Shown here piece after piece: positions 416 to 21,136 of a stretch of DNA of 64,000 nucleotides. Both the position numbers and the translations under genes were made by a program. Origin of the DNA: Lentisphaerae bacterium RIFOXYA12_64_32 (GTDB taxonomy: Bacteria; Verrucomicrobiota; Lentisphaeria; Oligosphaerales; YB12-FULL-65-16); contig MHBL01000433.1 of NCBI GenBank assembly GCA_001803235.1, positions 28,594 through 92,593 on the forward strand. The letters run 5' to 3'. Position 1 is the first letter of the stretch. Each line of letters begins with the position of its first letter. The notes beneath the pieces were generated by a model. The model was not told the origin of the DNA, searched no databases, and was given only the letters and a program-made list of their open reading frames with translations.

Positions 416-817
416 TCAGCGTGTCGGGGCGGCGGTCGCGCCGGACCGCTGCCGCATGACCGTCGGGCGTGGCGGCTGGCAGGCGGGGGTGAATTCGCGG
501 CGGTATTCGAGGGGCGAGAGGCAGTAGGTCTGCTTGAACAGCCGGGAGAAGTAGAACTCGCTGTGGAAGCCCGTCTGTCCAGAGATCTGGCGGACCAGGT
601 CGTGGGTCTCGACGAGCCGTTCCGCGGCCAGGCGCAGGCGGCGCTGGATGAGGTACTGCTGCGGCGAGAGCCCCGCGATCTGCCGGAAGAGGCGGCGGAA
701 GTGGGTGAGCGACACGCCCAGGCGCCCGGCTTCCGAGGCCAGGTCCCACGCACGCTCCGGAACCGCGCGATCGAGATCTATGGCGACCGCGCCACCGCGC
801 TGTTCGACCAGCAACAA
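416..817 (-). CDS. AraC-family DNA-binding domain, N-terminally truncated
   Basis: The 133-residue ORF holds essentially only the AraC/XylS double helix-turn-helix. The first helix-turn-helix is LGVSLTHFRRLFRQIAGLSPQQYL, and the second is VRQISGQTGFHSEFYFSRLFKQTYCLSPLEYRRE. A usual AraC regulator has about 280 residues with an N-terminal cupin sensor, which is missing here. An in-frame TAG lies just upstream of the TTG start, inside a dispersed repeat (822-848) found again near 26.7 kb. The gene therefore looks cut by a repeat insertion or rearrangement. It is divergent from the GH42 gene, so it may once have regulated it. A functional stand-alone DNA-binding domain cannot be excluded. Confidence 0.65.
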   Translation of the reverse strand: MLLVEQRGGAVAIDLDRAVPERAWDLASEAGRLGVSLTHFRRLFRQIAGLSPQQYLIQRRLRLAAERLVETHDLVRQISGQTGFHSEFYFSRLFKQTYCLSPLEYRREFTPACQPPRPTVMRQRSGATAAPTR

Positions 818-821
818 CTCC

Positions 822-848
822 TATCTCCACCCGCCACTGACGCATTAC
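822..848. repeat. Dispersed repeat TATCTCCACCCGCCACTGACGCATTAC
   Basis: These 27 bp match exactly, in inverse orientation, 26701-26727. The 21-bp core recurs at 26837-26857, and a degenerate copy lies near 44480. The copy sits at the broken 5' end of the AraC gene. Confidence 0.7.
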
Positions 849-960
849 GACTCGTTGCTGCCCTTTGCGTGCAGCCTGGCCGTGCGGTGCTATCTTCCCT
901 CCTGTCCGTTCGCGCCCAAGGTCTGTCAGCGGGGCGCGTCACATTCAGCAGGGGAGCGAC

Positions 961-3078
961 ATGAAAAGAATCAGTGACCGGCTGCGGTTCGGCGTGAGTT
1001 ACTGCCCGTACGCCAAGAGCGGTGACGTGGACATGGCGGTATGGGACCGCGACTTCCGCACCATGAAGGAACTGAACTTCAATGCGGTGCGGGCCTTTGT
1101 CGCCTGGGACCGCATCGAGCGCGAAGAGGGGCAGTGCGATTTCGGCAAGACCGACCGTCTGTTCGAACTGGCGAAGACGTACCAGATGGAGGTCATCCTG
1201 AACGTCGGCGGCGTCTTCTCCTGCTACGGGGGCGTCTACCCGCCGCGCTGGCTGATCCGCGACTATCACTGCCAGGAAATGGTGGAGAACCCGCGCGTTG
1301 TGGAGCGATCGTTCGGGCCGTTCCGCACCCTCTGCATGGACGATCCGGTGTACCAGGGGAAGGCGGCGGCGTTCACGGTCCGGATGATCCAGCGCTACGC
1401 CGATGTCCCCGAACTGTTCGGCTGGAATGTCTGGAACGAAGCGTTCATCCGCGCCTACTGCTACTGCCCGATCACGCTGGCGAAGTTCCGGGACTGGCTC
1501 AAGGCGAAGTACCGGGACGACCTGGGCCGGCTCAACGCGCTTTGGGGTACGGAGTTCCCGGTGGACTACAAGACCTGGGATGAGATCGAGCCCGGTCTGG
1601 GCACCGGGTTCTTCAGCAGCGGCTATGTCGCGCGGCTGGACTGGCTGGCGTTCAACCAGGCGCAGGTGGCGTCGTGGATCAGCGGGGTCAACCGTCTGGT
1701 GCGCGAGCATGACCGGCGCCAGCGTCCGACGACCAGCAACGTGGTTCTCACCGCGGTCGTGGGCAACGGGCACAATCACCCGGACATCTGGAGCCAGTCC
1801 CGCGACTTGAGCATCACGGGCATTTCCGCTTACACCACCGTGGGCAACGCGGCGCAGATCTCGTCCGGCTGGGCCAGTGTGCGCGGCAGTTCCAGCGATC
1901 CGGGCGGCGGTTTCTGGGTTCTGGAGACCGAGGCGGGGCAGGTGGCAAACCCGAATGTGCCCCCCGAAGTGGTCGATGGCCCGCGCCGCGAAACGATGCA
2001 CTGGCTGTCCGTGCTGCACGGCGCCAAAACTATCCTGCTGTGGAAGTTCGGTGGCCGGGTCACGGACAATCAGACCGAGATCTTCAACCTCACCGCGTGG
2101 GATGGCAGCGTTACGGAACGGGCCCGGCGCAACGCGCAGTTTGCCCGGACGTTCCGCGACCACGAAGACCTGTTCCTCGACACGCGGTACCAGGCCCGGG
2201 CGGCTGTCCTGTACTCGACCCGCAATGCACTCTTTGCGCAGGTGCACAGCAGCCACGAGAGCTGGCGCCAGCACAACTACGGCGCCTGGCGGGTCCTGCG
2301 CGACCTCTACATCCCGGGCGATTTCGTCAGCGATGTCCAGGTCCAGGTGGACGAGGGAAGGCTGTCGGCCTATGACCTGCTGATCCTGCCGGCGACGTAC
2401 AGCATGGACGCGGGACTGGCCGCGCGCCTGACCGATTTCGTCCGGAACGGCGGCACCCTGATCGCCGACCGTTGCACGGCCGTGACCGACGAGAACGGCC
2501 GGATCTTCCCGCAGGCGCCCGGCCACCGACTGGCCGCGGTGTTCGGCGGCTGCATCAACGACTTCCTGCTGAGTGCCAAGGAGGAGCCGGTTCTGTTTGC
2601 CGCCCCCGCCGCGACCCTGACGACCTACGCCAGGTACCACGCGGAGATCGTGCCGGCCGCGGACGCAGCGGTGCTCGGAACGTACGCGAACGGCAAGCCG
2701 GCCGCCATCTCGCACCGGTTCGGGAAAGGCCGCGTGGTGTGGTTCGGGTTCGACGCGTTCAGCGACTACGACAGCCACCCGGCGGCCACGCTGCGGACAC
2801 TCCTGCGACCGGTCCTTGCGTCTGCCGGCATCGAGAGCGATTACGAGGTCGGCGGGACCGCGACCGATCTGGAGCTCGGCGCACTGACCGGCGCGGATGG
2901 CGCGAAGGTCCATTTCCTGCTCAACCCGACGAACCAGAAGCAGGATTTCACGCTGCGGATCAAGTCCGCGCAAGGCCGGCAACTCCGCGACCTGCTCGGC
3001 GATTTCGTCTTCGACGGCGGCAAGACCGACGGGGTCGGAATCACGTTGGCCCCCTGGCAGACCCGGATCCTGTCGTGA
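961..3078 (+). CDS. Glycoside hydrolase family 42-like beta-galactosidase
   Basis: The 705-residue protein starts at ATG 961, preceded by AGGGGAGCGAC, so the ORF-track start is 32 codons too early. It shows a GH42 TIM barrel: GVSYCPYAKSG near the N-terminus, the acid/base region GWNVWNEAFIRAYCYCP (glutamate of WNE), and a nucleophile candidate in WVLETEAGQV. A Rossmann-like trimerisation domain (DLLILPATYSMDAGLAARLTDFVRNGGTL) and a small C-terminal beta domain follow. Length matches the family. No signal peptide is evident, so hydrolysis of imported galactosides or related beta-glycosides in the cytoplasm is likely. The substrate cannot be read from the sequence. The neighbouring AraC remnant faces away from it. 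Confidence 0.85.
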   Translation: MKRISDRLRFGVSYCPYAKSGDVDMAVWDRDFRTMKELNFNAVRAFVAWDRIEREEGQCDFGKTDRLFELAKTYQMEVILNVGGVFSCYGGVYPPRWLIRDYHCQEMVENPRVVERSFGPFRTLCMDDPVYQGKAAAFTVRMIQRYADVPELFGWNVWNEAFIRAYCYCPITLAKFRDWLKAKYRDDLGRLNALWGTEFPVDYKTWDEIEPGLGTGFFSSGYVARLDWLAFNQAQVASWISGVNRLVREHDRRQRPTTSNVVLTAVVGNGHNHPDIWSQSRDLSITGISAYTTVGNAAQISSGWASVRGSSSDPGGGFWVLETEAGQVANPNVPPEVVDGPRRETMHWLSVLHGAKTILLWKFGGRVTDNQTEIFNLTAWDGSVTERARRNAQFARTFRDHEDLFLDTRYQARAAVLYSTRNALFAQVHSSHESWRQHNYGAWRVLRDLYIPGDFVSDVQVQVDEGRLSAYDLLILPATYSMDAGLAARLTDFVRNGGTLIADRCTAVTDENGRIFPQAPGHRLAAVFGGCINDFLLSAKEEPVLFAAPAATLTTYARYHAEIVPAADAAVLGTYANGKPAAISHRFGKGRVVWFGFDAFSDYDSHPAATLRTLLRPVLASAGIESDYEVGGTATDLELGALTGADGAKVHFLLNPTNQKQDFTLRIKSAQGRQLRDLLGDFVFDGGKTDGVGITLAPWQTRILS

Positions 3079-3085
3079 GCCAGAC

Positions 3086-3117
3086 CTCACCTTATGTTGC
3101 GCGCAACATAAGGTGAG
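3086..3117. repeat. Perfect 32-bp palindrome after the GH42 gene
   Basis: CTCACCTTATGTTGC and its complement meet with no loop, 8 bp after the GH42 stop. The inner part GCGCAACATAAG resembles the end of the 13.45-kb repeat (CACGCAACATAAG). It could form a cruciform or an RNA hairpin acting as a terminator, though no T-run follows. Confidence 0.6.
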
Positions 3118-3198
3118 TTCTGGGCCGCATCGCTCACACCGGGCCGCATTCGGTCTGCCCCGCGGAACCCGTTCCCGATGACCTTGGGGGACACCTGT

Positions 3199-6180
3199 TC
3201 AGGGCTTCAGTGCCGAGACGGGTGTGGCGTCGCCGGCCAGAGCCGCGAGCAGGCCGTCGAGTCGCGTGTCGGCGCCGGCGTTCTGGGCCTTGGCCAGCGC
3301 CTGGAGCGCCGCCTCGTTCACCGGATCGACCAGTTCGACGACCCGCCACAGCAGGAGCTGGCGGGGGCCGGGCTTGGTCTTCCTGATGACGGACTGCACG
3401 AAGTCGACGTAGTCCCTGCCGGCGTCAGGCAGGTCCAGGCGGGGGATCTCCTGGTTCCGCTCCAGCTTGGCTTGGAGGAGGAGTGCGTCAGCGTTCCCCG
3501 GATCGGCGACCAAGGCGAATCGCAGCAGGTTCAGTCCACGCTTCTCGGCCGGATCATGACTGAGGAGCGACCCGGCTACGACGACCGCGCCGCCCGCCAG
3601 TCTGGCGCCGATACTTGACCCCTTCGCGGCAGTGGTGCGGGCGCGCGACGTCGTGCCGCTGCGGTTCGCAACCGTGGCCGCATCGGCGATGACGGCCGTG
3701 CTGCCTGACAGTGAGCCGGGATGTTCCGTGCCGATGGTGTGGAACGTGGACGGGGAACTCTGGTTGCGGAAACAGGCGTTCAGCCAGGCAGCGCTGCGGA
3801 CGCTGCTCGACACGCGCACTTCGTCGATCCGGCCGGCGAACCCGTGCTCGCCATTGCGCTCGCCGATGGTGACGACCAGGTCGTTCGTCGTGGCGGTCCA
3901 GGTGCCCTCCACGTCCTGGACATTGACGCCGTCCACGTACAGGCCGATCCGGCTGGTCGTGATTGTGGCGGCGACAAAGTGCCAGTCGCCGTCCCGCAGG
4001 TCCGGGCCGGTGCTGCCGCCCGTGTCGATCTTCGACGTGCCGCGCACGCCCATGCGCAGCCGCCCGGCGGTGAGGATCAAGTCCCAGCCGGTGTAGCCGG
4101 CGTACTTGCCGATGATCGCGTTGTAGGTGGCCGCGCCCTCGGGCTTGATCCAGGCCGAGAGCGTGAACTGCTGCGTGAAGTCGAAGTTGCTCTCCGTGGC
4201 AACCTCCACGACGTCGTCCTCGCCGTCGAACCCATCGGCGCCGCCGACCTTGCCGGCAACGCCCTGAGTCACGCCGTTCTCGGGCGCGCCCGTGTTCCCA
4301 TTGCCGGTGGAGTCGGCGTGACTGCCCGACGCCTCGCCCATGTGCAACACCACGACGTAGTTGCCGTCCCACACGCCGGACGCGTTCGCCATGCCGCCGC
4401 AGGCGGGGTTCCCGTAGTGCATGTCGAGGACCGTGTCGGACGACGCGTGCAGCGTCGTCACCCGCACCCACGCCTGCAGCGCGCCGGTTGTCTTGTCGTA
4501 ACGTTCGACCTCGCAATCCAGGATCGCCGTCTTCCCATGCAGGGTGAAGACGATGTCGCCGCCGTCCGCCTGCGCCTTGGCCCTCAGGCCGGGGTCCGTC
4601 ACGCTGACCAGGACCGGGAAGTCGGTCAAATCCGCCTCGACCGCGCCCGCGGCGATGGTCACCGTTCTTGTGTACTTCCATCTGCCACTGAGGCGCGCCG
4701 CCCGGGATGGTTTCGCCACTGGCGCGATGGGTTCACTGCGGTCCGCTGGAGTTGGCGCGCGACGGACAGCCGCCGCTCGCTCGCCGCCGTCCGCCGATGG
4801 TGGCGGTTTCGGCATGGGGGGTGGTTCCGGCATGGGGCCGGCCTTGGCAGCCGCCTGCGCTCTGCCGATCGCTTCCTTGACCTCACGCAGACGCACGTAC
4901 ACGGCGTCCGGCGTCTGGTCGCCGTGCTCGTCCCGGAAGGCCTCAAGCAGTCGCAGTTGCTCGTCCAGGCTCTGGAGGCCTTTCAGCCGCGCTTCGAGTT
5001 GGCGCCACGCGGTCTCGGCCTGGGCTTGCGGCGATGGCGTGGCAGCCGGGACCGCTTTCGGTGCGGCGGCGCGACGATCCGCAGCCACGGCGGTCACGGG
5101 TTCGGGTGGGGCCTCGGGCACAGACGCGCCGGGATGCAGCCGTCGCCAGAGAAGGAACCCGGGCGCAATGGCGCTCGCGATGATGATGCCGACCACGAGC
5201 GCACGGGTGCCCGCGGACGCCGGCTTGGGCGCCCCGTGCCTTCCCGCCTTGTCCCGCTCCAGTGGGCTGGACAGCGACGCCGCGACCTCCGGCGTCAGGT
5301 GCAGCTTCTTCACTTCCTTCTTCTTGCTCGTGCCGCCGCTGAGGAACCCCTTGAGCCGGCCGGCGACCTCCGCCCAGCTCCCGGGCCGGGCGTCCGGCGA
5401 CTTCTGCAAGAGGCAGCCGACGTAGTCCGAGACCGCTGCGGGGACCGCGGGGTTCCGCTCCCGCACCGGTTGTGCCGGCTCGGACAACTGTCGGGCCATG
5501 ACCGTCTCCGGGTCGTTGCCCGGGAAGGGCGGCTGGCCGCAGAGCATGTGGTACAGGGTGGCCCCGAACGAGTAGATGTCCGCACGGCAGTCCCCGGCGA
5601 CGTGTGTTCCCCGGATGACCTCCGGCGCGCCGTAGAGCGGGGTGAGCATGGCGCCTTTGCCGGCGAACTCGTGCCCGGCGACTTTGGCCAGACCGAAGTC
5701 GGCCAGCTTCGTCATGCCGGCCGAGCTGATCATGATGTTTTCGGGCTTGATGTCGCCGTGGGTCAGGGCCCTGGCCTGCCACCCGTACTGCAGCGCCTGC
5801 GCCACGTCGAGCCCGACGCTCAAGGCCCGGGTTACCTCCATAACCCGCTCGCGGGCAAGGCATTGCTCCAGACTCTCGCCCTCGACGTACTCCATGGAGA
5901 GGAAATAGATGTCGTCCTCGGACACCCCGGCGTCATGGACCTGGATGATGTTCGGGTGGGACAGCGCGGCAGCGGCACGCGCCTCGTTGAAGAAGCGGCA
6001 GACGTATTCCTCGTCACTGGCGAGCGCGGGCGCGAGGACCTTGAGCGCAACCGGACGCATCAGATTCATCTGCGTGGCCAGGTAGACCACGGCCATATTG
6101 CCGCGGCCCAGCTCACGCTCGATGCGGTAGCCGGCGACCAGCGACCCGGGAGTCAGCCCTGCTTCCCCTTGAGATCCCAT
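3199..6180 (-). CDS. Membrane-anchored Ser/Thr protein kinase with DUF2341 and LamG-like ectodomain
   Basis: This is a 993-residue PknB-type kinase. The kinase domain is at about 18-280, with glycine loop GRGNMAVVY, VALKVL lysine, catalytic loop HGDIKPENIM and ADFGLAK. The usual HRD arginine is replaced by glycine. One transmembrane helix (ALVVGIIIASAIAPGFLLW) lies near 327-345. A proline/alanine-rich and coiled stretch leads to a DUF2341 domain (WKYTRTVTI, about 501-600) and a concanavalin/LamG domain (about 610-800, AWIKPEGAATYNAIIG). The C-terminus is probably helical. The layout implies cytoplasmic phosphorylation linked to an external sensor that may bind carbohydrate or protein. RBS GTGGAG precedes the ATG, 19 bp after the small secreted-protein gene, so the two form an operon. 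Confidence 0.88.
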   Translation of the reverse strand: MGSQGEAGLTPGSLVAGYRIERELGRGNMAVVYLATQMNLMRPVALKVLAPALASDEEYVCRFFNEARAAAALSHPNIIQVHDAGVSEDDIYFLSMEYVEGESLEQCLARERVMEVTRALSVGLDVAQALQYGWQARALTHGDIKPENIMISSAGMTKLADFGLAKVAGHEFAGKGAMLTPLYGAPEVIRGTHVAGDCRADIYSFGATLYHMLCGQPPFPGNDPETVMARQLSEPAQPVRERNPAVPAAVSDYVGCLLQKSPDARPGSWAEVAGRLKGFLSGGTSKKKEVKKLHLTPEVAASLSSPLERDKAGRHGAPKPASAGTRALVVGIIIASAIAPGFLLWRRLHPGASVPEAPPEPVTAVAADRRAAAPKAVPAATPSPQAQAETAWRQLEARLKGLQSLDEQLRLLEAFRDEHGDQTPDAVYVRLREVKEAIGRAQAAAKAGPMPEPPPMPKPPPSADGGERAAAVRRAPTPADRSEPIAPVAKPSRAARLSGRWKYTRTVTIAAGAVEADLTDFPVLVSVTDPGLRAKAQADGGDIVFTLHGKTAILDCEVERYDKTTGALQAWVRVTTLHASSDTVLDMHYGNPACGGMANASGVWDGNYVVVLHMGEASGSHADSTGNGNTGAPENGVTQGVAGKVGGADGFDGEDDVVEVATESNFDFTQQFTLSAWIKPEGAATYNAIIGKYAGYTGWDLILTAGRLRMGVRGTSKIDTGGSTGPDLRDGDWHFVAATITTSRIGLYVDGVNVQDVEGTWTATTNDLVVTIGERNGEHGFAGRIDEVRVSSSVRSAAWLNACFRNQSSPSTFHTIGTEHPGSLSGSTAVIADAATVANRSGTTSRARTTAAKGSSIGARLAGGAVVVAGSLLSHDPAEKRGLNLLRFALVADPGNADALLLQAKLERNQEIPRLDLPDAGRDYVDFVQSVIRKTKPGPRQLLLWRVVELVDPVNEAALQALAKAQNAGADTRLDGLLAALAGDATPVSALKP

Positions 6181-9624: not shown

Positions 9625-12168
9625 TCATAGACCGCTCGGGACCGCGATGGGAACCTGGATCTTGGCTTGGACCTCGGAGTAGAGGTCGACCTTCACCCCC
9701 AGAGCGTGCAGCGAGACGATCAGGCTGTAGCGAATCTTGGCGTTCGACCTGCCCAAGGCAGGGCGGGTCTTCCACCAGCCGGTGGTCGGGAACACGGCAA
9801 TGTGCTTCATGCTCAGGAGCTTCGCCGCCGGGCCTTCCCAGAAGTCAGAGTGCACCGACCCCTTGAAGACCATCGAACCCAACTTCCACTCGTCTATAGA
9901 CCCCTTGACCACCTCACGATGCTCTGCCTTCGCCTCGTCCTGCGCGTGCTGGTTGACCTGAGCCCTCAAGTCCTCAACCGGTTGACCCGGCGAACTGACT
10001 CTGAACCGTAGGCGGCAACCTGGATATCCGTACCTCGAAGCGGTTCGGTTGCCCGGGTTCGGGTCAATGAAGTACGAAAGCGTGACTCGCATTCGGACAT
10101 CCTCACGCCCCGCGATCGTGCTGAGCACATCGTCGGGCCATGGCAACGTATAGACGTGGTACTCGTTGTAGTGCGCAGAGCGGCCGTCTTCGTCAGCGGC
10201 AAACGGCTGTAGTTCGGCTTGGGCAATCATGGTGACACGTTCACGGGCACACTCGACGGCGGCTTTATACCGCGGTATTCCGTACCCTACCGTCTTGAGC
10301 AGCCACTTCCGCCGCTCTTTGCCCGTCAACGCATTGCCATCCGCGTCAAACCTAGGAATGGACTCCTCCATCGCCGGCGTCCACTCGGCGGAATGAACCA
10401 TCAACCCCCGCACTGTCTCCGGCCAAAGGTCCGGGTGCGATGCGAGTAGGTAACCCGCCATCTGCGACGCCAGCGCCGTTGCCGCACTCGTGCCGTCAAA
10501 GAGTTCGAAGAAGGTCTTGGGAAAGTCAGCGCTGGTCGAGAGAGGCAGCACCTCTGGGAAACACTGGACGCTCTGGTTCGGCCCGAGCGCGCCATTCCCG
10601 CCCTCAAGGACGATATCGGGTTTCGCGGGCCACTCGTCCTCCCATGCGAGCGACGTGCGATTGCTGGGTGCCATGCCGTACGCCGACGCGAGCGTACGGT
10701 ATCCCTTGCGGTCCGGCAGCGCCCGCAGTCGATCCATCAGTGTGCAACTGCCAACGCAGAGCGCGTTCCACGCCTGTCCCGGGTTCTGCACCGGCGATTC
10801 GTGATTGGGGGCCGGGTACAGCGACCAGTCCTGTTTCGGGACATTGCCGACGCTGATGCAGAAGAGACGTCTGACCGCTCCGTTGGCGTCGGTCCCAGCG
10901 GCCAGGCGATCAATCTCCGCCGACCATGAACTCGGCCTGCCGACACTCCTGCCGTCCATGGTGCTTGCCATGCACCAGACACGGGTTCGTTGGGCGTCCG
11001 CTATCTCGGCCGTGGCAACGCCCTGGGCCGTGTAGGCTGCTGCTGCCTTCTCGTCCCGGTTCACTTCCGGCGGCGGTGGCACAATCTTCACGCCCTCGAG
11101 AATGTACGGAACTGGGATCTGTTCGTTCTTGGCCAGAACGGTGGTCAGGTTCCCATAGGCCGCCATCCCCGCCATGGGGGTACCATGGCCCTGGTCGTCC
11201 CCGGTGTTCCATGTCGCCTTGATCGTGTGGTTGTCTGCGGCGGCGAGAACCGGAGAGAGTAAGGGGTGCCCACGGTTGACCCCGGTGTCCAGAACACAGA
11301 CCGCAAGCTCGCCCGTCCCGAGCGGGCGCAGACGTCGCAGCGCATCCTCCTGCCACTTGGCCTGTTCCTCGGGCGTGAGATCCACGAAGAAGTCGGCGTA
11401 GTCTCCGACTCGCCGGATCTCTGCCAGGCAGTTCATCAGGGCAAAGGACTGTCCGAACTGGCCAAAGCGCCCGCGCACATGGAGAATGGTGTGCTCGGGA
11501 AGCTTCTCGACCGCTTGGCCTACTTCAAACTTGCACCGCACCGCCTCGCCGCCAAACTGGCGCAGGATCCCCTGGCGGTCCTCCTCGCTGTCGCCCCGGC
11601 GCAACCACACCTCGTACCAACCCTCATCCTCAGGCTGGGGACATGGGCTTACGTCCGTCCACAACTCGTCCAGAACGGCCGCGCGAAGCCGGCTGATGCT
11701 GTCCACAAGCTCCCGGCGTTTGGGTTCGGTGGATTGCGCGCTTTTCTGCTTGGTCAGGTACTGCTCGAAGATCCGCACAAACTCATCCAGCGCGCCGTCA
11801 CGGATGAACCACCGTTGAAGTTCGACCGTCTTCCCTGACACGTCCGCCGCGACAGAATGATTGAGCAGCACGAACTTCGGGACCACGTGGTCCGCCCACG
11901 CGTCCGTTTGCAGCGGAATGCCTGGCTGCCCCTCAATGGTGACGATGATCCCCTTGGAGCGGATCTCCGCCTCCCGGTCAGCCCAACTCGGCACGCGGGT
12001 CCGGTACTCGTTCCGGATCAGCTCCGCTTCACGTCGGAGAGCCGCGCCATGCTGCCGCCGGTCTTGAGGGGGGATGACGACCGCCTCGATGCGCCTTCTT
12101 CTGGGCTGGAACTCACCGCGCTCATGCCAGCGGTCCCCCAGGCGCAGCAGCGGGTATTGGTTCGGCAT
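9625..12168 (-). CDS. ietS: Subtilisin-like serine protease (IetS-like)
   Basis: An 847-residue S8 peptidase. Catalytic Asp is in VCVLDTGVNRGHP (about 295), His in DDQGHGTPMAG (about 328), the oxyanion Asn in SVGN (about 442) and Ser in FDGTSAATALASQ (about 560). About 280 residues of mixed charged sequence precede the protease and about 230 beta-rich residues follow. There is no signal peptide, so it acts in the cytoplasm. It begins 6 bp after the AAA ATPase stop, so the two are co-transcribed. AAA ATPase plus cytoplasmic subtilase is the ietAS arrangement, reported as a plasmid-stability toxin-antitoxin pair and as a phage-defence system. Assignment rests on architecture, not on a database match. 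Confidence 0.82.
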   Translation of the reverse strand: MPNQYPLLRLGDRWHERGEFQPRRRRIEAVVIPPQDRRQHGAALRREAELIRNEYRTRVPSWADREAEIRSKGIIVTIEGQPGIPLQTDAWADHVVPKFVLLNHSVAADVSGKTVELQRWFIRDGALDEFVRIFEQYLTKQKSAQSTEPKRRELVDSISRLRAAVLDELWTDVSPCPQPEDEGWYEVWLRRGDSEEDRQGILRQFGGEAVRCKFEVGQAVEKLPEHTILHVRGRFGQFGQSFALMNCLAEIRRVGDYADFFVDLTPEEQAKWQEDALRRLRPLGTGELAVCVLDTGVNRGHPLLSPVLAAADNHTIKATWNTGDDQGHGTPMAGMAAYGNLTTVLAKNEQIPVPYILEGVKIVPPPPEVNRDEKAAAAYTAQGVATAEIADAQRTRVWCMASTMDGRSVGRPSSWSAEIDRLAAGTDANGAVRRLFCISVGNVPKQDWSLYPAPNHESPVQNPGQAWNALCVGSCTLMDRLRALPDRKGYRTLASAYGMAPSNRTSLAWEDEWPAKPDIVLEGGNGALGPNQSVQCFPEVLPLSTSADFPKTFFELFDGTSAATALASQMAGYLLASHPDLWPETVRGLMVHSAEWTPAMEESIPRFDADGNALTGKERRKWLLKTVGYGIPRYKAAVECARERVTMIAQAELQPFAADEDGRSAHYNEYHVYTLPWPDDVLSTIAGREDVRMRVTLSYFIDPNPGNRTASRYGYPGCRLRFRVSSPGQPVEDLRAQVNQHAQDEAKAEHREVVKGSIDEWKLGSMVFKGSVHSDFWEGPAAKLLSMKHIAVFPTTGWWKTRPALGRSNAKIRYSLIVSLHALGVKVDLYSEVQAKIQVPIAVPSGL

Positions 12169-12174
12169 ACGGCG

Positions 12175-13167
12175 TTAGGCCTTTGTCGGTCGACTCAGAC
12201 GTCGTCGGTCGGCAAGGGCGCTCAGGAGAAGGGGCGTGCTCACGCAAGGCAGGCCTTCGATGATCCGTTCCTTGATCGCTTCGCTGGCCACACGTTCCGC
12301 CTCGGCAAAGGTCATTCCCTGCATGGCCCCCAGCACCTTTGACCAGTTGATGTCAGAGTCCTTCTCCTGCAGGAGACGGCGCTTCATCAGAAGCTCAACC
12401 TCCTTGCGGGACGGCAGTCCGTACTCGATGATGTCATCGAAGCGCCGGAACAGCGCCACGTCCAGTGCGTCCGGGTGATTCGACGCCGCAATCACAATGC
12501 TGTTCCCGCGCATGCTGTCGATGAAGACGAGGAAACTGTTCAGCACCCGCCGCATCTCGGCCACGTCGTGCTGTGAGCCGCGCGCCAAACCGAGCGAATC
12601 GAACTCGTCGAACAGAAACACGGCGTGCTGGCGCTCGATGGTCTCAAACACGAGCCGGAGTTTCGTCGCCGTCTCGCCCAGGTACTTGGTGAACAACGCG
12701 TCCAGACGCACCACGTACAGCGGCAACGCAAGGTCATGCGCCAGGGCATGCGCGGTCATCGTCTTCCCGCACCCGGACGGGCCCAACAGCAGCAGGCGAT
12801 GGCGGGGCGTGAGGTTGTACTCGCACAACTGGTTCGCGTGCTGCTGCTCCTTGACGATCCGCTCGAGCCGGCGCCGAAGCGCGGCCGACAGCACCATCTG
12901 CTTCAGCCCGAAGGCCGGTTCCACGGCATCCATCAACCCGGCAAGCTCATTGGCGGCAAATGGACCGTCCCCCAGGCTGGCCCGCATACGGTTGGCCTGC
13001 TGCGCTTTGTTCCCCTTCTCCAGCAGCCGCTGAATGGTGGCCGCAGCCTCGTCATGCCCCATGCGCGCCTCGTTCGCGGCAAGTTGCAGCACGGCCGTGC
13101 GGAATCGCTCGTCGTCACCTTCGAAGTGACTTCGCAACATTTCGACAATCTGATTGATGGCAGCCAT
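12175..13167 (-). CDS. ietA: AAA+ ATPase paired with the subtilase (IetA-like)
   Basis: A 330-residue AAA+ protein. Walker A GPSGCGKT is near 129-136, Walker B VFLFDEFDSLG near 182-192, a sensor region at VIAASNHPDALD, and the arginine-finger region ALFRRFDDIIEYGLPS. The N-terminal 100 residues are helical, with no protease or DNA-binding motif. ATG 13167 (MAAINQIVEML) is preferred to the GTG eight codons earlier, though neither has a strong RBS. In related two-gene systems the ATPase is thought to control or deliver substrates to the protease. A sigma70-like promoter lies upstream at 13215-13243. Confidence 0.82.
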   Translation of the reverse strand: MAAINQIVEMLRSHFEGDDERFRTAVLQLAANEARMGHDEAAATIQRLLEKGNKAQQANRMRASLGDGPFAANELAGLMDAVEPAFGLKQMVLSAALRRRLERIVKEQQHANQLCEYNLTPRHRLLLLGPSGCGKTMTAHALAHDLALPLYVVRLDALFTKYLGETATKLRLVFETIERQHAVFLFDEFDSLGLARGSQHDVAEMRRVLNSFLVFIDSMRGNSIVIAASNHPDALDVALFRRFDDIIEYGLPSRKEVELLMKRRLLQEKDSDINWSKVLGAMQGMTFAEAERVASEAIKERIIEGLPCVSTPLLLSALADRRRLSRPTKA

Positions 13168-13214
13168 CGTATGAACCCCAATCACTTGCACCGCAACATC
13201 GCACCTCTATCCGT

Positions 13215-13243
13215 ACTATACTGCCCGCGCGACGCGACCCCAA
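13215..13243 (-). promoter_or_regulatory. Sigma70-like promoter for the ietAS-like pair
   Basis: Read on the minus strand: TTGGGG, 17 bp, then TATAGT, placing initiation about 40 bp before the ATPase start. The -35 is a weak match and the -10 is good. Confidence 0.4.
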
Positions 13244-13441
13244 CGCCGGGACGTGGGACGGATGCCGCGCTTGGTCAAGACGCCCGCGGACATCCCCCGT
13301 CACGCCGATACCGCCGACCGCAACACAGGCAGAAGGGGCTGGCGTGACTGGCTCGACTTGCCCAAGAACCGCAACAGATCAGACCTGGGGGGGCGGGAAG
13401 CAAGGTCGGACAACTTTCGAGCCCGTGTGGCTGCTCCCTGA

Positions 13442-13675
13442 GCGCAAATGAGCTAGCCAAGACAGGTTTGACATCAATGACACGCAACATAAGAAATGCT
13501 GAACGCTGAATGCTGAGTACTGAATGTCGGATGTTGAGTGCCCAACCGAAACCCGGTCTCGTCGAACCACGCGATGGAGCGTACCCAACATCCCGGCCCC
13601 CAGCTCAGCATTCAGCGTTCAGCATTCAGCACTTCCGGGCTCGGCCCCGCCTTAAATTGGGGGGCATTCGGTTTG
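13442..13675. repeat. Repeat block right of the ietAS-like pair (A2 arm plus B2 arm and heptamer repeats)
   Basis: A2 (13442-13493) is the direct-repeat partner of A1 at 9393. B2 (13651-13675, CTTAAATTGGGGGGCATTCGGTTTGAC) is the partner of B1 at 9589. Between them are inverted runs of heptamer-type repeats: GCTGAACGCTGAATGCTGAG at 13499 and CTCAGCATTCAGCGTTCAGCATTCAGC around 13606. The interior differs from the left block, so only the arms are conserved. Confidence 0.65.
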
Positions 13676-13708
13676 ACATCACCCCCACATCACGCCCCCC
13701 CACACACA

Positions 13709-14396
13709 GGTCAGAAGAAACGCGTTGTCCATGGAACCGAACGCCATCAAGGTGTGTCTCACTCGGTAAGACGGGGACTGGTAGGACAGTCCGAGGATAG
13801 GAAGCTGGCAGTCGAGGTAGGAAGGCAGAGTCAGAGATCGAGACAGCTCGAGAGTTGCTCGGAGTGGGTCGAGAAGGCTGCCAGGCACGAGGAAGCGAAG
13901 GTCGCATCAACAGGCAGAAGGCAGAGCGGGTTGAGAGAGCCTGGTGATGGCAAGAGGGTCCGATCCAGTCCCCGCCTCGCTCTTTTCTTTGCTTCCGGCG
14001 CGACAGCGTTGACCTCCGTTGTGCAACACCACGCATTGACGTTGTCTTGACGTCGATCCGACGCGCCTCACCCAAAGCGGTACTTCGTCTGCCCGCAGCG
14101 CTTGCGCCTGTGGCGCCAGCGACAGGCGCTGCAGGCGGGTACACGCAATCCAAAGCGGAAGCCTCGGGGACAGGCACATAGTGGCGGGGCTGGCCAAAAT
14201 GCGCCAGTGCTCCGCCCGCGGCATGGGGCGCACGAACGTGTGGCACGCCGCGAACGGCCGCGACGCGGACCTGCAACACAGATAGCCCGTCCCGTCCCCA
14301 GGGTCTTCACGGTCCGGCTGACTCTGCTCTGGCCTTGTTGTGCCGAGGCGTGGCGGGTATTGTCCAAAGGCGACACAGATAGCCTGTCCCCAAGGA
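13709..14396. repeat. Long dispersed element, copy 1 (5' segment plus 235-bp core)
   Basis: It begins with a segment around CGCGTTGTCCATGGAACCG that recurs at 20334. It ends with a core (14163-14396) bounded by CCTCGGGGACAGG and CCTGTCCCCAAGG, which are inverse to each other. By eye the core is over 90% identical to 19726-19963 and 20802-21036, all in the same orientation. The core ends exactly at the stop codon of the TPR-ATPase gene. ORFs across it are shadows; no transposase is recognisable. Confidence 0.75.
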
Positions 14397-17300
14397 CTAC
14401 CCATTCGCCAGCAGTCCGGTCGGTCGCGGCCGTCCCAGGCGCTCCGCGATCTCCATGACGACCTCGCGGACCTCGGGGAACAGGCGTTCAAGGATGGTCA
14501 CATCGCCCGTGCGGAAGTACTCAACCGCCTGAATAAAGGGGTCTACAAGGCGGAGCACGTCTGCGTTCCGCACCGTGGCTCTCACCATGTCCACGGCGTC
14601 CGCGAACCGCTCCGGTACGAGCTGCAGCACGTGACGCAGGAAGGTGCCCATTTGTGCCCCGTACCAGTCCAGTTCGTGCCACGCTTCCATTGCCAAGACG
14701 GCGCGGAGAAGGTTCAGACCGACGTCTGCCTCGCCTTTTCGGAGTGCACCTGACGCGACTCCCAGGATGTACTCGCACACCCCCGCGAGGTCTCTCGGCG
14801 GGATCGGCACAGCCGCCAACGCTACAGGCAAGGCCTCCATGCGTTTGCCGTGGCGGCCTAGGCAGGCCAGCGCGATCTCCCGATCCGCGGCGGGGCTCCA
14901 GTACTGCGGTTCAACCGTCAGGGCGGCGTCGAGATCCTCGAGGGCCTCGGCATACCGTCCGGCCAGAAGCAGAATGTCGCCCCGGAAGCGGTGTACCTCA
15001 CGAGGGCTGGCCCCAATCGTCTCGGCTTGATCGACCGCGGTCAGCGCGTCGTCCGCGCGTTGCAGACGGACCAGACACCACGCTTTCCTCAGAAGCAACT
15101 CCGGCGTGTTCGCCGCCTGTGGCGCCGCTTCCAGACGCGCAAGTGCATCTTCGTGTCGTCCCAACTTCCAGAGGGACAGGACGACGGTCAGGATCATCTC
15201 GGGGTGGTCGGGTACCAGATCGCAGGCCTGTTCGGCCGCTGCGAGCGCCTCGGGGTGGCGCCCCAGGCTGCGAAGCGCGACGGACTGCAACCGCCACAAC
15301 TCCGCAGTGGGCTCGCCGACGTCGGCGGCCTTGCGGAAGGCCTCAAGCGCTTGCTTGTAGTCACCGGTCAAACCTGCCGCCCGGCCCAGTACTCTCCAGG
15401 CGGTGGCGCTTTGCGGGTCCATTTCCACGGCGTGTTGTGCGCACTCCGCAGCTTCCGGGAAGTGCTCAAGTTCGAACAGCGCCATCGATTGCGCCAGCCA
15501 CAGCTCCGCTGTGGGTCCGCCGACTTCGGCTGCCTTGCGGAGCGCGGCAAGCGCTTGATCGTGGTCACCGGTCAAGCCAACCACCCGGCCCAACTCCTCC
15601 CAGACCCCGGCGTCTTGCGGGGCCACCTCGGTAGCGCGTCGCGCGCACTCTGCGGCCTCAGGGTAGCGCTTGAGTGCCCGCAGTGTCATCGACTGCAGCC
15701 GCCACAGTTCTGCCGTGGGGGCAGCGAACTGAACAGCCTTACGGGCGGCATCCAGCGCCGGCTCGTCTTGGTCAGCGAAGTGCAGTGTCAGGACCAGTCT
15801 CTCCCACGCCGTGGCGTCTTGCGGGGCCATCTCGGTGGCGTGTCGTGCGCACTCCGCAGCCTCCGAGAAGCGCTTGAGCGCAAGCAGCGCCACGGATTGC
15901 CCTTTCCACAGTTCCACGGTGGGCCCACCGAGTTCGGCCGCCTTGCGGAAGGCCCCGAGTGCCTGCTCGTAGTCACCGCTCCCGAATGCCGTCCGACCCA
16001 ACTCCTCCCAGGTTGTGGGATTCTGCGGTGCCATCTCGGCGGCATGCCGTGCGCATTCCGTGGCTTCAGGGAGACGCTTGAGTGCAAGCAGTACCCTCGA
16101 TTGCCCTCGCCAGAGATCCGCGGTGGAGCCGCCGAGTTCAGCCGCCTTGTGGTAGGCCTCAAGCGCCGGCTCGTTCTGATCAGCCAAGCACAACGCCCAA
16201 CCCAGTCGCTCCCATGCGCCGGCGTTGTCGGGTTCCAACTCGACGGCCTTGCGCGCACACTCCGCCGCCTCCGGGAAGCGTTTCAGTGCCTGCAGTACCA
16301 TGGATTGCCGCCGCCATCGCTCTGCGGTGGGACCGCCAATGTCGGCCGCCTTGCAGAAAGCCTCAAGCGCAGGCTCGTTCTGGTCAGTGAAGTGCAATGC
16401 CCAACCCAGTCCCTCCCATCCGCCCACGTTTCCGGGCTCCAACTCGATGACCCTGCGCGCGCATTCCGCGGCCTCCGGGAAGCGCTTGAGTGCAAGCAGC
16501 GCCCTCGATTGCCGTTCCCAGAGATCCATCGTGGGGCCGCCGATCTCGGCCGCCTTGCGGTAGGCGTCCAGTGCCTGCTCGTGGTTACCTTGGCGAACGA
16601 CGGCGATACCCAGGAGTCTCCACCCGTCCGCGTCGGACGGTTTCTGTGCGGTCAGCGCACGTGCGTGCTTCTCCGCTTCTGCCGCGCCACCCAACTTCAG
16701 CAGTTCGGAGACGTCGTCCGCGGCATCCTTGTAGCGCCCGGACTGAAGGTGGAGTTGAGCCTGAACGTCATAGGCTGACCTGGTGCCTTCGGCATCCCCC
16801 TGGTCCAGGGTCTCGCGTAGGAAGGAAGCGGCTTCCTGCTCTGCCCGCCGCCCCATCCCGACGGTGACGAGCGCGTCTACGCGAGAACGGAAGATGTCGC
16901 ATCGCAAGTCGGCAGGCGCTGCGGCCTGAACGTAGTACATCTCCTCAACGTGATGCAAGATTCCCTGCTTGTCAGCGCCGGGGAGGCGGCGCAAGCCCCG
17001 TGTGTGTTCCTCATACAGGGAGCGTATGTCCTCCGGAGTGTAGTACAACTTGAGGAAGTCCACGAGGAAACGGAATCGCTGCTGTCCCGCGACACTTGCG
17101 GTTTGGCGCCAGATCCGGAAAAGACGTTCCGAGACGTCGTATCGCGTGGCGCGCTGGCGCTGGAGCTTGATTGGCCGGACATAATGCTGCTGTTTCAGGC
17201 GCTGGAGCTGGGCGTTGACCTTGGCGACCGGCAGGCGGGTGGCGAGGGCGATCTCGGAGGGCGTGGCCGGTCCCGGCATCTCACACAATGTGTCCAGGAC

Positions 17301-18245
17301 CTTTCGGGGTTGTTCCGCCAAGTCGTCGAAACGGCGGACGAAATACTCTCGCAGGTCCTCCATGAGTTGAGCAAGAGCAACCTCGATTTCGAGGAACGTG
17401 TTGCGGGTGGCGACCTGCGCAACGAACAGAATCAACCGGGGATTGCCCCCCGTCAGCGCGAGGATGGCCGGAAGTTTGCGGCTCAGCTCCTCCTGGCGCG
17501 CGTTGAACTCATCGATCCTGCCCTCTTCGGCAAACCATTTCCCGACCAACTCGAGTACTTCAGGCTCTCGCAAGTCCTCGATGGGGCGAACATCGAAGAA
17601 ATCATGGAATGCTGCCTGTTGTCCGAGAATCTGCTTGAAGACAGTTGGCGCGCTGGCAATGATCAGCACGAAACCTTGACCACTCAAGAAAGCGCGGAAG
17701 CGTTCGTGGTCACTGTGCCGCCACCCCGAGAGAACCTTCTGCACATTGTCGACAAGCAGCAGAATGCGTTTGTGGCGTTCGTCGTGGTAACGTGTCAGGC
17801 GCTCGAAACAGCAGCCGCATACGGCCGCATCGTCCTGCCGAGGCAGATCAGGCGGCAGTTGCCAGAGAGACTCAAGGACATTCTCCTGGCGCAGTTTGGC
17901 GATGACGTTGAGCAGGAAGTTGGCGAGTGAGTTCTGTCCCGCATACTCCTCCTCGGTGAAGAGCACGGGCGTCCACGCCGACAAGTCGGTGGAGACGGCA
18001 AACGGCGGGGCGAGGCGTCCGGCGACATAGTGGCGGACCAGGCTGAGGAGGTGGGTCTTGCCTATTCCGCGTGGGCCGACCAGAACCGTGTGATTCGCCA
18101 CACAACCGGCTGGAGAAGACAACAAACCGAGCAGGTCGGAGAGCACACTGTCCCGGCCAACCAGGGTCCGCCCGAGCTGTTCCGGAACGGCCTGCCAGGG
18201 TGCGAAAGGATGCCGGCGTACTCCCGACGTGTCAAACGGACGCAT
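14397..18245 (-). CDS. STAND-like ATPase with winged helix and TPR array
   Basis: A 1282-residue protein starting at ATG 18245 (MRPFDTSGVRRHPF), 14 bp inside the end of the upstream ATPase gene. The NTPase domain has Walker A GPRGIGKT (57-64) and Walker B RILLLVDNVQKVL (about 160-172). A winged helix follows (SEIALATRLPVAKVNAQLQRLKQQHYVRPI, about 330-370). From about 538 come seven copies of a 68-residue double-TPR unit of the pattern LG...ALEA.RKAAE.GGPTAELWR.QS.ALLALKRFPEAAECAR, then less regular TPRs to about 1120. NTPase-wHTH-superstructure proteins act as signal-transduction switches in immunity or regulation. No effector domain is visible, so the partner or the TPR tail may provide it. 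I know no named system with this exact pair. Confidence 0.8.
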   Translation of the reverse strand: MRPFDTSGVRRHPFAPWQAVPEQLGRTLVGRDSVLSDLLGLLSSPAGCVANHTVLVGPRGIGKTHLLSLVRHYVAGRLAPPFAVSTDLSAWTPVLFTEEEYAGQNSLANFLLNVIAKLRQENVLESLWQLPPDLPRQDDAAVCGCCFERLTRYHDERHKRILLLVDNVQKVLSGWRHSDHERFRAFLSGQGFVLIIASAPTVFKQILGQQAAFHDFFDVRPIEDLREPEVLELVGKWFAEEGRIDEFNARQEELSRKLPAILALTGGNPRLILFVAQVATRNTFLEIEVALAQLMEDLREYFVRRFDDLAEQPRKVLDTLCEMPGPATPSEIALATRLPVAKVNAQLQRLKQQHYVRPIKLQRQRATRYDVSERLFRIWRQTASVAGQQRFRFLVDFLKLYYTPEDIRSLYEEHTRGLRRLPGADKQGILHHVEEMYYVQAAAPADLRCDIFRSRVDALVTVGMGRRAEQEAASFLRETLDQGDAEGTRSAYDVQAQLHLQSGRYKDAADDVSELLKLGGAAEAEKHARALTAQKPSDADGWRLLGIAVVRQGNHEQALDAYRKAAEIGGPTMDLWERQSRALLALKRFPEAAECARRVIELEPGNVGGWEGLGWALHFTDQNEPALEAFCKAADIGGPTAERWRRQSMVLQALKRFPEAAECARKAVELEPDNAGAWERLGWALCLADQNEPALEAYHKAAELGGSTADLWRGQSRVLLALKRLPEATECARHAAEMAPQNPTTWEELGRTAFGSGDYEQALGAFRKAAELGGPTVELWKGQSVALLALKRFSEAAECARHATEMAPQDATAWERLVLTLHFADQDEPALDAARKAVQFAAPTAELWRLQSMTLRALKRYPEAAECARRATEVAPQDAGVWEELGRVVGLTGDHDQALAALRKAAEVGGPTAELWLAQSMALFELEHFPEAAECAQHAVEMDPQSATAWRVLGRAAGLTGDYKQALEAFRKAADVGEPTAELWRLQSVALRSLGRHPEALAAAEQACDLVPDHPEMILTVVLSLWKLGRHEDALARLEAAPQAANTPELLLRKAWCLVRLQRADDALTAVDQAETIGASPREVHRFRGDILLLAGRYAEALEDLDAALTVEPQYWSPAADREIALACLGRHGKRMEALPVALAAVPIPPRDLAGVCEYILGVASGALRKGEADVGLNLLRAVLAMEAWHELDWYGAQMGTFLRHVLQLVPERFADAVDMVRATVRNADVLRLVDPFIQAVEYFRTGDVTILERLFPEVREVVMEIAERLGRPRPTGLLANG
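15206..16634 (-). repeat. Tandem 204-bp coding repeat (double-TPR units)
   Basis: Within the TPR-ATPase gene seven consecutive 204-bp units encode 68-residue double TPRs sharing the phrase LALKRFPEAAECARxxxE. The similarity extends to the DNA: GGGTCCGCCG and CGCAAGCGCTT-like strings recur at this period. This suggests recent duplication and scope for copy-number change. Confidence 0.75.
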
Positions 18246-19422
18246 GGTAGATCCTCCACCAGTCCCGGAGCCACTTGCTCTTGAACACGACCTCGCGTCG
18301 CTCCGGCAGCACCTCCTCGACGTAGAAATCGTCATGCAGCCAGCTCAACAGCAGATCGAATGCGCCCCCGTTCGCGGTGCCCAGTTCCTCATGGTACAGA
18401 GCCTGCAGCCTGGCCCGGGCGACCGGGCCTCCCGCAATCGCCAGCTCGCGCAGGAGCCGTTTGGCCGCGCGGGCCTCGTCGGGTGTGTAATAGCGATCCA
18501 GGCGCTCGTAGTAGTCCTCGAACCGGTTCCGGTACTGCGGTCCCAATGCGCGTTCCTCATAGCACATGCGGACGAGTTCGGGCGTGAGTTCCGCGCCGCG
18601 GTCCCGGACCTCACTGGCCACTGCGGACGCGAGGATCTGCATGAAGATGGGGATGAAGGTCTCTACCTGCTCCAGGAAGGTCTCCGTGATCAGGACATTG
18701 GCCTCGATCCCCCGGGAGGCGAGCAACTGCCGCACGAAGGTGGCGGCGGCCTCACGAGTGAAAGGACCCACGGGAATCTGGGCCAGGTCATTGATCTTGT
18801 GCGTGGCGCCGATATGCGCGGCGACGCGCGCCATGCCGACTGAACCGGCGACGAGTTGCCGCAAGCCCGGTCGGATCTCCGGCTCATGGCGCAGATGGCG
18901 AAGCCAGTCAAGTAGTGACAGGGCCTTCTCCTGTCCTTCCTCTCCGGAGTCGGCCATTCGGTGCAGCAGGAGTGGGAGTTCATCGAGAATAACGAGCAGT
19001 TTCGGCCCGGATGCTACGGCGGCGCGAACGGCGCTTTCACCTTGTTCACGCCATCCTTGCGCGAGTTGTTCCCGCAACGTTAACTTGATCTGCCAGATCT
19101 CAAGCTCCTCGATGTTCCGACGAGCCCCCGTCAGAATCCCCTGGGTAAACTTACGGACGTCGCCGCTGACCTTGCCAACCCTGACAACCAGATCGGCGAC
19201 GAGATCCTCGGGCGATTCGTAGTTCTGGCCATCCAGGTACACCGGCCGGAACCCGTTGGCGGGCCGCTCCATGAGTCGAAGCATGATGCTGCTCTTCCCC
19301 ACTCGCCTGGGTGCAGCGAGCAGAACGCTATCGCCCTCAAGCGTCTGCCACAGGTTGGCGATGAGTTGCTCGCGGTCGAAGAAATCCTCTCCGGTGACAG
19401 GGTTACCGGTGACAATATGCAT
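18232..19422 (-). CDS. ATP-binding protein, first gene of the two-ATPase pair
   Basis: A 396-residue P-loop NTPase of the AAA/STAND type. It opens MHIVTGNPVTGEDFFDREQLI, a phrase typical of ATPases that begin NP(V)..FFGRE, then Walker A APRRVGKSS (37-45) and Walker B KLLVILDELPLLLH (about 141-153). The C-terminal half is helical and contains a winged-helix-like stretch (YYTPDEARAAKRLLRELAIAGGPVARARL) ending in DFYVEEVLPERREVVFKSKWLRDWWRIYH. The partner protein carries a similar YYTPEDIRSLYEEHTR phrase. RBS CAGGAGATGGGCC precedes ATG. The overlap with the downstream gene implies coupled translation and a joint function, perhaps a heteromeric NTPase sensor. Confidence 0.78.
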   Translation of the reverse strand: MHIVTGNPVTGEDFFDREQLIANLWQTLEGDSVLLAAPRRVGKSSIMLRLMERPANGFRPVYLDGQNYESPEDLVADLVVRVGKVSGDVRKFTQGILTGARRNIEELEIWQIKLTLREQLAQGWREQGESAVRAAVASGPKLLVILDELPLLLHRMADSGEEGQEKALSLLDWLRHLRHEPEIRPGLRQLVAGSVGMARVAAHIGATHKINDLAQIPVGPFTREAAATFVRQLLASRGIEANVLITETFLEQVETFIPIFMQILASAVASEVRDRGAELTPELVRMCYEERALGPQYRNRFEDYYERLDRYYTPDEARAAKRLLRELAIAGGPVARARLQALYHEELGTANGGAFDLLLSWLHDDFYVEEVLPERREVVFKSKWLRDWWRIYHASV

Positions 19423-19468
19423 GGCCCATCTCCTGTATCAAGATTGCTATATAACACAACCGTTACAT

Positions 19469-19496
19469 AACATAAAATGCTTGGCGATGCTGTCAA
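19469..19496 (-). promoter_or_regulatory. Sigma70 promoter of the two-ATPase cassette
   Basis: Minus strand: TTGACA, 16 bp, TATGTT, about 47 bp before the start codon, within an AT-rich stretch (TTATGTTATGTAACGGTTGTGTTATATAG) that stands out from the GC-rich surroundings. Internal GTTA-TG-TAAC symmetry could serve as an operator. Confidence 0.5.
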
Positions 19497-19725
19497 GCGC
19501 AGCCCGGCAAGATTCCCTTGGACAGACAGAACGGAATGCCTTGTGTCCACAACCCCTGCCTCCCATGAAACTGAAGGTTCCCAGAGCCCGTGAGGACGCG
19601 GGCGCTGGAAACGTCGTTGTCAATTTCACCTCGGTGTGGCCGGGTGATGCACCGCCCGGAAAACTCGGGGACAAGAGCCACAGGGGAACCTCGGGAGAGC
19701 CTCGGGGACAGAGCCTCGGGGCGAG

Positions 19726-19963
19726 CCTCGGGGACAGGCACATAGTGGCGGGGCTGGCCAAAATGCGCCAGTGCTCCGCCTGCGGCATGGGGCGCACGAA
19801 CGTGTGGCACGCCGCGAACGGCCGCGACGCGGACCTGCAACACAGATAGCCCGTCCCGTCCCCAAGGTCCACATTCACGGTCCGGTTGACTCTGCTCTGG
19901 CCTTGTTGTGCCGAGGCGTGGCGGGTATTGTCCAAAGGCGACACAGATAGCCTGTCCCCAAGG
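19726..19963. repeat. 235-bp core repeat, copy 2
   Basis: Nearly identical to the core at 14163-14396 and in the same orientation, so the two ATPase genes lie between direct repeats. Several GCCTCGGGG(A)CAG repeats precede it (19698-19740), as in copy 3. A gene remnant starts 13 bp after its end. Confidence 0.75.
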
Positions 19964-19975
19964 TCCCTGCCCGCC

Positions 19976-20236: not shown

Positions 20237-20333
20237 CCTACCCCGCCGCCACCCCGGCCCGCAAGATGCTCTTCACCGAACGGATAGGTATCAGTCAACC
20301 CGAAACGGTCAATGCCAAGGCCCTTGGCCTGCA

Positions 20334-21036
20334 GGTCGGAAGAAACGCGTTGTCCATGGAACCGAACGCCATCACGGTGTGTCTCACTCAGTACGACGGG
20401 GGCTGGTAGAACAGCCCGAGACTCCCGCGCTGGCAGTCGGAGTGAAGGAGAGAAACAGAGGGAGTTGAGAGTGAAGGCAACAAGCTCGCGGTGTCTCGCG
20501 AGGACTGCCAGGCAAGAGGAAGCGAGGGTCACCACCAACAGGCACAGAGGGTCGGTAGAGCCTGCGAGTGGGAAGGGCTTAAAGCCCGGTCCCCGTCGCG
20601 CCTCTTTTTCTCCCCGTCGCGCCGCGGATCGAGTGCGCGTTCCCCGTTTCTTTCGCCTGCCCGTGGAGCGCCGTGCAGCTCTCTTGAGTCCCTCGCACTG
20701 CGATCCGCCTGTTCCTTGTCGTCCCGGCAAGAAGCCGGCGGAAGGCGGGTGTTGAGCGTTGCCTGTTGGACCAAAGCCTCGGCCAGAAGCCTCGGGGGGA
20801 GCCTCGGGGACAGGCACACAGTGGCGGGGCTGGCCAAAATGCGCCAGTGCTCCGCCTGCGGCATGGGGCGCACGAACGTGTGGCACGCCGCGAACGGCCG
20901 CGATGCGGACCTGCAACACAGATGGCCCGTCCCGTCCCCAGGGTCGTCACGGTCCGGCTGACTCTGCTCTGGCCCTGTTGTGCCGAGGCGTGGCGGGTAT
21001 TGTCCACAGGCGACACAGATAGCCCGTCCCCAAGGA
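20334..21036. repeat. Long dispersed element, copy 3
   Basis: Same order as copy 1: the GTCCATGGAACCGAACGCCATCA segment at the left, a diverged middle, and the 235-bp core at 20802-21036. Both strands carry only shadow ORFs. It lies 100 bp from the end of the beta-helix gene. Confidence 0.7.
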
Positions 21037-21136
21037 CTCCCCGATCTATGCGCACATCGCAATCTCATGATACTGAAGGCGGGACCGCGTTCCTGGCGCG
21101 GGTGTGCCGGTCGCGTCTGCGCTGGCAGGAACAGGG

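Follow-up and report, generated by a model that had tools for sequence, protein, structure and literature searches.

Gene A and gene B, two overlapping genes within a 64,000-nucleotide stretch of DNA from Lentisphaerae bacterium RIFOXYA12_64_32 (the window), form a real and conserved module that is obligately linked and horizontally spread. With a probability of about 0.5, the pair is a mobile two-part STAND-type switch, in which gene B provides the sensor and gene A the catalytic partner, most likely for a conflict (anti-phage or anti-plasmid) response. The analysis establishes linkage, co-inheritance and horizontal spread of the pair, asymmetry between the motifs of its two proteins, their STAND/ORC-type folds and turnover of the TPR repeats.

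Both open reading frames are present on the minus strand, and with the ATG at 18245 as the start of gene B they share 14 bp, the overlap given in an earlier note on this DNA (Table 1). The P-loop NTPase motifs that it singled out, read here as APRRVGKSS and LVILDELP in gene A and VGPRGIGKT and LLLVDN in gene B, are likewise present, and they are kept in relatives. Its proposal that the pair has its own promoter agrees with a promoter-like TTGACA-16-TATGTT candidate and an AGGAG ribosome binding site ahead of gene A; four sigma-70-like sites occur in the region versus 1.0 expected, and all four fall within 19412-19496. The YYTP phrase said to be shared by the two proteins fared worse. It stands before the winged helix in gene A and after it in gene B and is unconserved in either family, so the likeness is probably due to chance. 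The adjoining genes, previously called ietAS-like, are recognized by PADLOC as IetAS; the definition of that system (an AAA ATPase plus a subtilase) does not suit gene A and gene B and fits the neighbours at 9625-13167 instead. It is very improbable that the pair regulates or adds to IetAS here, with A, B, ietA and ietS making up one four-gene unit. IetAS does lie on the same strand, 1.2 kb downstream of the pair, but a repeat element and that 1.2 kb separate the two, the pair has a promoter-like site of its own, and IetAS is not recognized beside any other pair.

Table 1. Features of the two-gene cassette and its surroundings (positions are those of the window).
Feature	Position	Strand	Description or basis
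Gene A	18232..19422	minus	396 aa; NTPase, ATPase_2/STAND-like; winged helix at the C-terminus; Walker A, APRRVGKS; Walker B, ILDE
Gene B	14397..18245	minus	1282 aa; NTPase, ORC/STAND-like, then a winged helix and a TPR array; Walker A, GPRGIGKT; Walker B, LLLVDN
Gene B winged-helix domain	17133..17333	minus	~residues 305-371; Pfam, PDB profile, fold
Gene B TPR region	14847..16733	minus	~residues 505-1133; Pfam TPR_2, TPR_16 and others
204-nt tandem DNA repeats within the gene B TPR region	15179..16582	minus	60-78% identical; TRF period 204
Candidate sigma-70-like promoter upstream of gene A	19469..19496	minus	TTGACA-16-TATGTT
Ribosome binding site of gene A	19430..19434	minus	AGGAG, 7 nt before the ATG
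Direct repeat copy 1	14157..14402		touches 3' end of gene B
Direct repeat copy 2	19698..19966		240-246 bp element at 19721-19966; 276 bp ahead of gene A; 97% identity with copy 1
Direct repeat copy 3	20775..21042		240-246 bp element at 20797-21042; 96% identical to copy 1
Second repeated block	13707..13795		collinear with 20332-20420, 92%
Partner of the 13707-13795 block	20332..20420		
ietA (neighbour)	12175..13167	minus	IetA AAA ATPase, separate system; PADLOC E 2e-75
ietS (neighbour)	9625..12168	minus	IetS subtilase, DTG/GHGT/GTSA motifs present; PADLOC E 3e-29

Direct repeats bracket the pair, as had been noticed before. An element of 240-246 bp is present in three copies that are 95-97% identical, one at the 3' end of the pair and two upstream, and if copy 1 recombined with copy 2, almost exactly gene A and gene B would be lost. 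The 10.6-Mb assembly, which is fragmented, contains no other full copies of this element. Flanking direct repeats were rejected as a trait of the family, since among the loci with both flanks testable few have any, mainly the loci L054 and L100.

The linkage of the two genes is kept well beyond the window. Relatives of gene A were drawn from the class, the phylum, another order, the class of Dechloromonas, and plasmids; a first single-protein scan of genome contigs had given matches in Dechloromonas only. Gene B lies directly downstream of gene A in 36 of 39 gene A loci, which belong to several phyla and distant bacteria, at spacings of -14 to +41 bp (a 4-bp overlap in 13). These 36 include two that are incomplete at a contig edge (L058 and L106), two with a frameshifted or interrupted gene A (L060 and L063) and one with a short, weakly matching gene B (L062); the exceptions are L047 (no gene B), L110 (a gene A fragment) and L061 (a broken gene B). 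Within a draw of 387 genomes, gene B was found in 14 (15 genes), each time beside gene A (15/15), while gene A was found in 15 genomes, one of which is without gene B. The earlier description of a self-contained, two-gene module of STAND-kind ATPases with a sensor-like TPR tail holds up, and the linkage is retained in distant genomes. At the broken locus, on a Methylomonas plasmid (CP157006.1, L061:10150-10700), gene B is interrupted just past the start of the P-loop; the apparent cause is an insertion or rearrangement.

The two genes have also travelled together. Over 30 pairs, the distance matrices of A and B are strongly correlated (Mantel r 0.94, p 1e-4), and in both trees well-supported nodes bring together members of the Dechloromonas class and of the phylum to which the window belongs. 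Cross-phylum clades with support of 0.95-1.0 join, for example, L102 with L053/L056, L100/L101 with L049, and L108 with L055. The matching distances and the intermixing of phyla in both trees indicate that the pair is transferred as a unit. It is rare, being present in ~4% of genomes of the phylum and in 11 of the 369 drawn from the Dechloromonas class. Plasmid relatives are few, and neither the phages searched nor the viral contigs searched with A and B profiles contain any.

Gene A encodes a compact ATPase for which Pfam yields sub-threshold ATPase matches only; the window protein scores 14.9 bits against an ATPase_2 gathering cut-off of 33.2 bits, and some relatives fit this family better (E 3.5e-7). 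A profile search of the PDB matches gene A to 2fna (E 1e-11) and 2qen, two archaeal structures of the ATPase_2 family. The lid and winged helix of the predicted gene A model superpose on 2fna (Z 13.0, 150 residues), with the model being weak over the P-loop, and further fits are to plant NLR resistosomes (Z 11-12 over 151-166 residues) and archaeal ORC2 (Z 10.1). The winged-helix-like segment previously seen in gene A is thereby borne out by the predicted fold. Because the AlphaFold alignments drew on window and Dechloromonas sequences only, the P-loop halves of both proteins are modelled poorly and with low confidence. Across the 30 pairs, gene A always has RRxGK[ST] as its Walker A and the canonical DE as its Walker B (30/30 each), and at the GxP position P258 is kept in 27/30 with no fixed G before it. 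Gene A shares with archaeal ATPase_2 proteins (PF01637; 2fna, 2qen), its best structural match, the RRxGK[ST] P-loop, lid and winged helix, but it differs in having a full-length family profile of its own, an obligate partner and, in the window, a score under the Pfam cut-off. The gene A of L011 carries an extra N-terminal domain of 119 aa without a Pfam match.

In gene B, Pfam recognizes a core of the AAA_16 family, followed by a winged helix and then by an extended TPR region. Its profile matches ORC4/RuvB-type and TnsC P-loops and ArsR/MarR winged helices in the PDB. The winged helix, also picked out earlier, is recovered by Pfam (HTH_IclR/MarR_2), by PDB profile (ArsR/MarR) and by fold (Z ~10 over 68-97 residues), the remainder of the model being poor. 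The STAND-type arrangement after the NTPase is seen as a helical lid plus winged helix in gene A (from the 2fna and plant NLR fits) and as a winged helix in gene B. The gene B core aligns end to end among homologues at 23-29% identity. Its Walker A reads GxRGxGK[ST], with R, G, G and K in 30/30, and its Walker B has [D/E]N rather than DE in 30/30 pairs, the second residue being non-canonical. Glu98, separate from the Walker B, is invariant in the 30 pairs and might act as a catalytic base. At the GxP position (GGNPR), G is found in 30/30 and P in 18/30, with H in 9. The earlier suggestion that one ATPase gates the other is compatible with this fixed Walker B difference between the two proteins.

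The long TPR array reported to close gene B is present (TPR_2 E 1e-64), with seven copies of a 204-nt unit that encodes 68 aa, or two TPRs. TPR families are found in the window protein and most homologues, and the tail is nearly absent in L003 (523 aa) and L055. Between homologues, the tails align as generic repeats only. In-frame tandem repeats (TRF score >= 300, repeats >= 90 bp) occur in 17/36 gene B sequences versus 1/97 control ORFs, the controls being other ORFs of at least 500 aa from the same loci. The repeat periods vary among homologues from 96 to 456 bp, and the match between units reaches 96% in L102; together, these features point to recent expansion. Several gene B proteins, including tail-less ones, have a motif resembling L-x-x-[LA]-PE-[IV]-R in their last 60 residues, after any TPR array, which is possibly a conserved cap. 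At L014:3820-9066, the gene B product also contains NACHT and FGE-sulfatase domains, a fusion that counts among the links to defence; the flanks of this locus (601-3792 and 10796-13948) encode two large, mutually similar proteins, each starting with a cyclase-like stretch.

The ORC-like signals raise the alternative that an A-B heteromer loads on DNA, as an ORC/TnsC-like pair, and controls replication, partition or insertion of an element, with the direct repeats marking a mobile cassette. The gene B matches to ORC4, RuvB and TnsC P-loops, the gene A fit to archaeal ORC2, the locus-specific repeats around the cassette and the three integrases among the proteins flanking pair loci all lean this way. 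Nevertheless, this alternative is improbable, as there is no recurrent transposase, relaxase or origin-like partner, flanking direct repeats occur at few other loci, chiefly the two named above, and the TPR array is left without a role. The ORC/Cdc6-like ATPases BrxC/BrxD of BREX (PMC12839542) resemble the pair in being ORC/STAND-type AAA+ proteins with a winged helix in a defence setting, but the pair has no linked PglZ, methylase or helicase and differs from them in size and tail. MoxR-vWA/iSTAND ternary systems (PMC7159879) were set aside, no MoxR or vWA partner being seen at pair loci.

The pair does not figure as a catalogued system. PADLOC 2.0.0 assigns the pair to no system, giving only mad8 (E 0.013) for gene A and weak CARF3/PDC matches (E 0.001 or worse) for gene B, and NCBIfam does not name it as a system. 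Literature searches, whose coverage left out most subscription papers and preprints, returned no description of such a pair. STAND ATPases with TPR sensors are already known. Whether the pair sits near defence genes elsewhere had been asked before; it does so in a minority of loci, most pairs standing alone among housekeeping genes. By raw tally, the defence neighbours, in few loci, are IetAS (in the window), PD-Lambda-4, an Hma-type HmaC gene and DarG (of DarTG). On a Moraxella osloensis plasmid (AP031474.1, L068:3823-13217), A and B are followed by a PD-Lambda-4_A gene, which overlaps gene B by 17 bp, and by a further large NTPase gene; at L011:6002-8364 there is a 4-bp overlap between a RelA/SpoT-domain gene and the start of gene A. 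The PD-Lambda-4 and RelA/SpoT neighbours are single cases; a conserved third gene was sought and none was found, and no effector domain is common to the gene A/gene B family. B-like genes without gene A lie beside a Pycsar pair on a Sphingobium plasmid and, on Agrobacterium plasmids (L064:2172-10081 and L069), encode a TPR ATPase whose gene has two nucleotide-cyclase genes and one ThiF gene for neighbours; on a Mycobacterium avium plasmid (L067:6641-9336), the gene for a short B-like ATPase (~384 aa), also without gene A, shares 4 bp with that of a Ser/Thr kinase.

These surroundings bear on whether the pair is a non-defence STAND regulator of the MalT/GutR kind, which would sense a metabolite or chaperone client and control transcription or assembly of a host pathway, its winged helices binding DNA. 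The gene B winged helix is like those of MarR/ArsR regulators, housekeeping genes surround most copies of the pair, and STANDs with a TPR sensor, MalT among them, activate transcription (PMC6468293). It was argued before that a conserved housekeeping neighbourhood would tell against a defence module; each Pfam family seen in the 103 flanking proteins is present in 3 of them at most, a pattern that indicates neither a conserved pathway nor a third partner and that speaks against a pathway regulator. The sporadic distribution and cross-phylum transfer of the pair tell in the same direction. Additionally, Pfam detects no further domain in the window gene B, hence no C-terminal DNA-binding output domain of the MalT type, and no extra DNA-binding domain is seen in the window gene A either, the winged helix belonging to the STAND core. 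A regulator is, on balance, unlikely.

The two-part conflict switch accommodates these observations better in our estimate, a conflict role being suggested by the rarity of the pair, its transfer, the turnover of its sensor and the minority of defence neighbours. Against it stand the housekeeping surroundings of most pairs, outside defence islands, the lack of an effector domain shared across the family, and the finding of few relatives on plasmids and none in the phages searched. Ligand sensing, heteromeric assembly, the defence role and the output are the parts of this reading that we infer. The rapidly rebuilt TPR array of gene B would bind a ligand, most likely an invader- or stress-derived protein. 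Binding would then free the NTPase/winged-helix core from autoinhibition, as in MalT-type STANDs; TPR sensors are known to govern STAND opening in MalT and PH0952 (PMC6468293). Gene B shares with these proteins (PMC6468293) the order of NTPase core, winged helix and TPR solenoid, but the pair links two separate NTPases, has a [D/E]N Walker B in gene B and lacks a LuxR output domain. Once opened, gene B may assemble with its obligate partner, gene A, whose Walker B is of the canonical catalytic form and which has no repeat tail and no effector at its N-terminus, and the resulting A-B hub could work through host or neighbouring effectors. Antiphage STANDs of the Avs/bNACHT and PD-Lambda-4 types likewise combine a STAND NTPase with a repeat sensor, and one pair overlaps a PD-Lambda-4 gene, as described above; however, an effector is fused in those systems and none is fused in the window pair.

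Plant paired or helper NLRs and NAIP-NLRC4 consist of two STAND proteins, one of which bears sensor repeats. By analogy, gene A and gene B, also two STANDs of which one has sensor repeats, might co-assemble, although the pair has no homologous effector or sensor domains. A stricter and rather doubtful version of the two-part switch would make the pair a bacterial sensor-helper equivalent of NLRs. In it, the STAND that bears the TPR sensor and a non-canonical Walker B would have to co-assemble with a separate catalytic STAND as a heteromeric immune hub, effectors would be recruited in trans, and specificity would be shifted by in-frame gain or loss of near-identical TPR units.

If the two-part switch reading is true, bacteria possess a two-part NLR-like switch that divides sensing and catalysis between two STAND ATPases inherited together, with tandem duplication rebuilding the sensor. 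Such a pair would offer a simple system for studying the assembly of heteromeric STAND hubs and the evolution of their specificity. It would also be one more candidate, widely transferred and effector-less, of a kind that searches of defence islands would largely miss.
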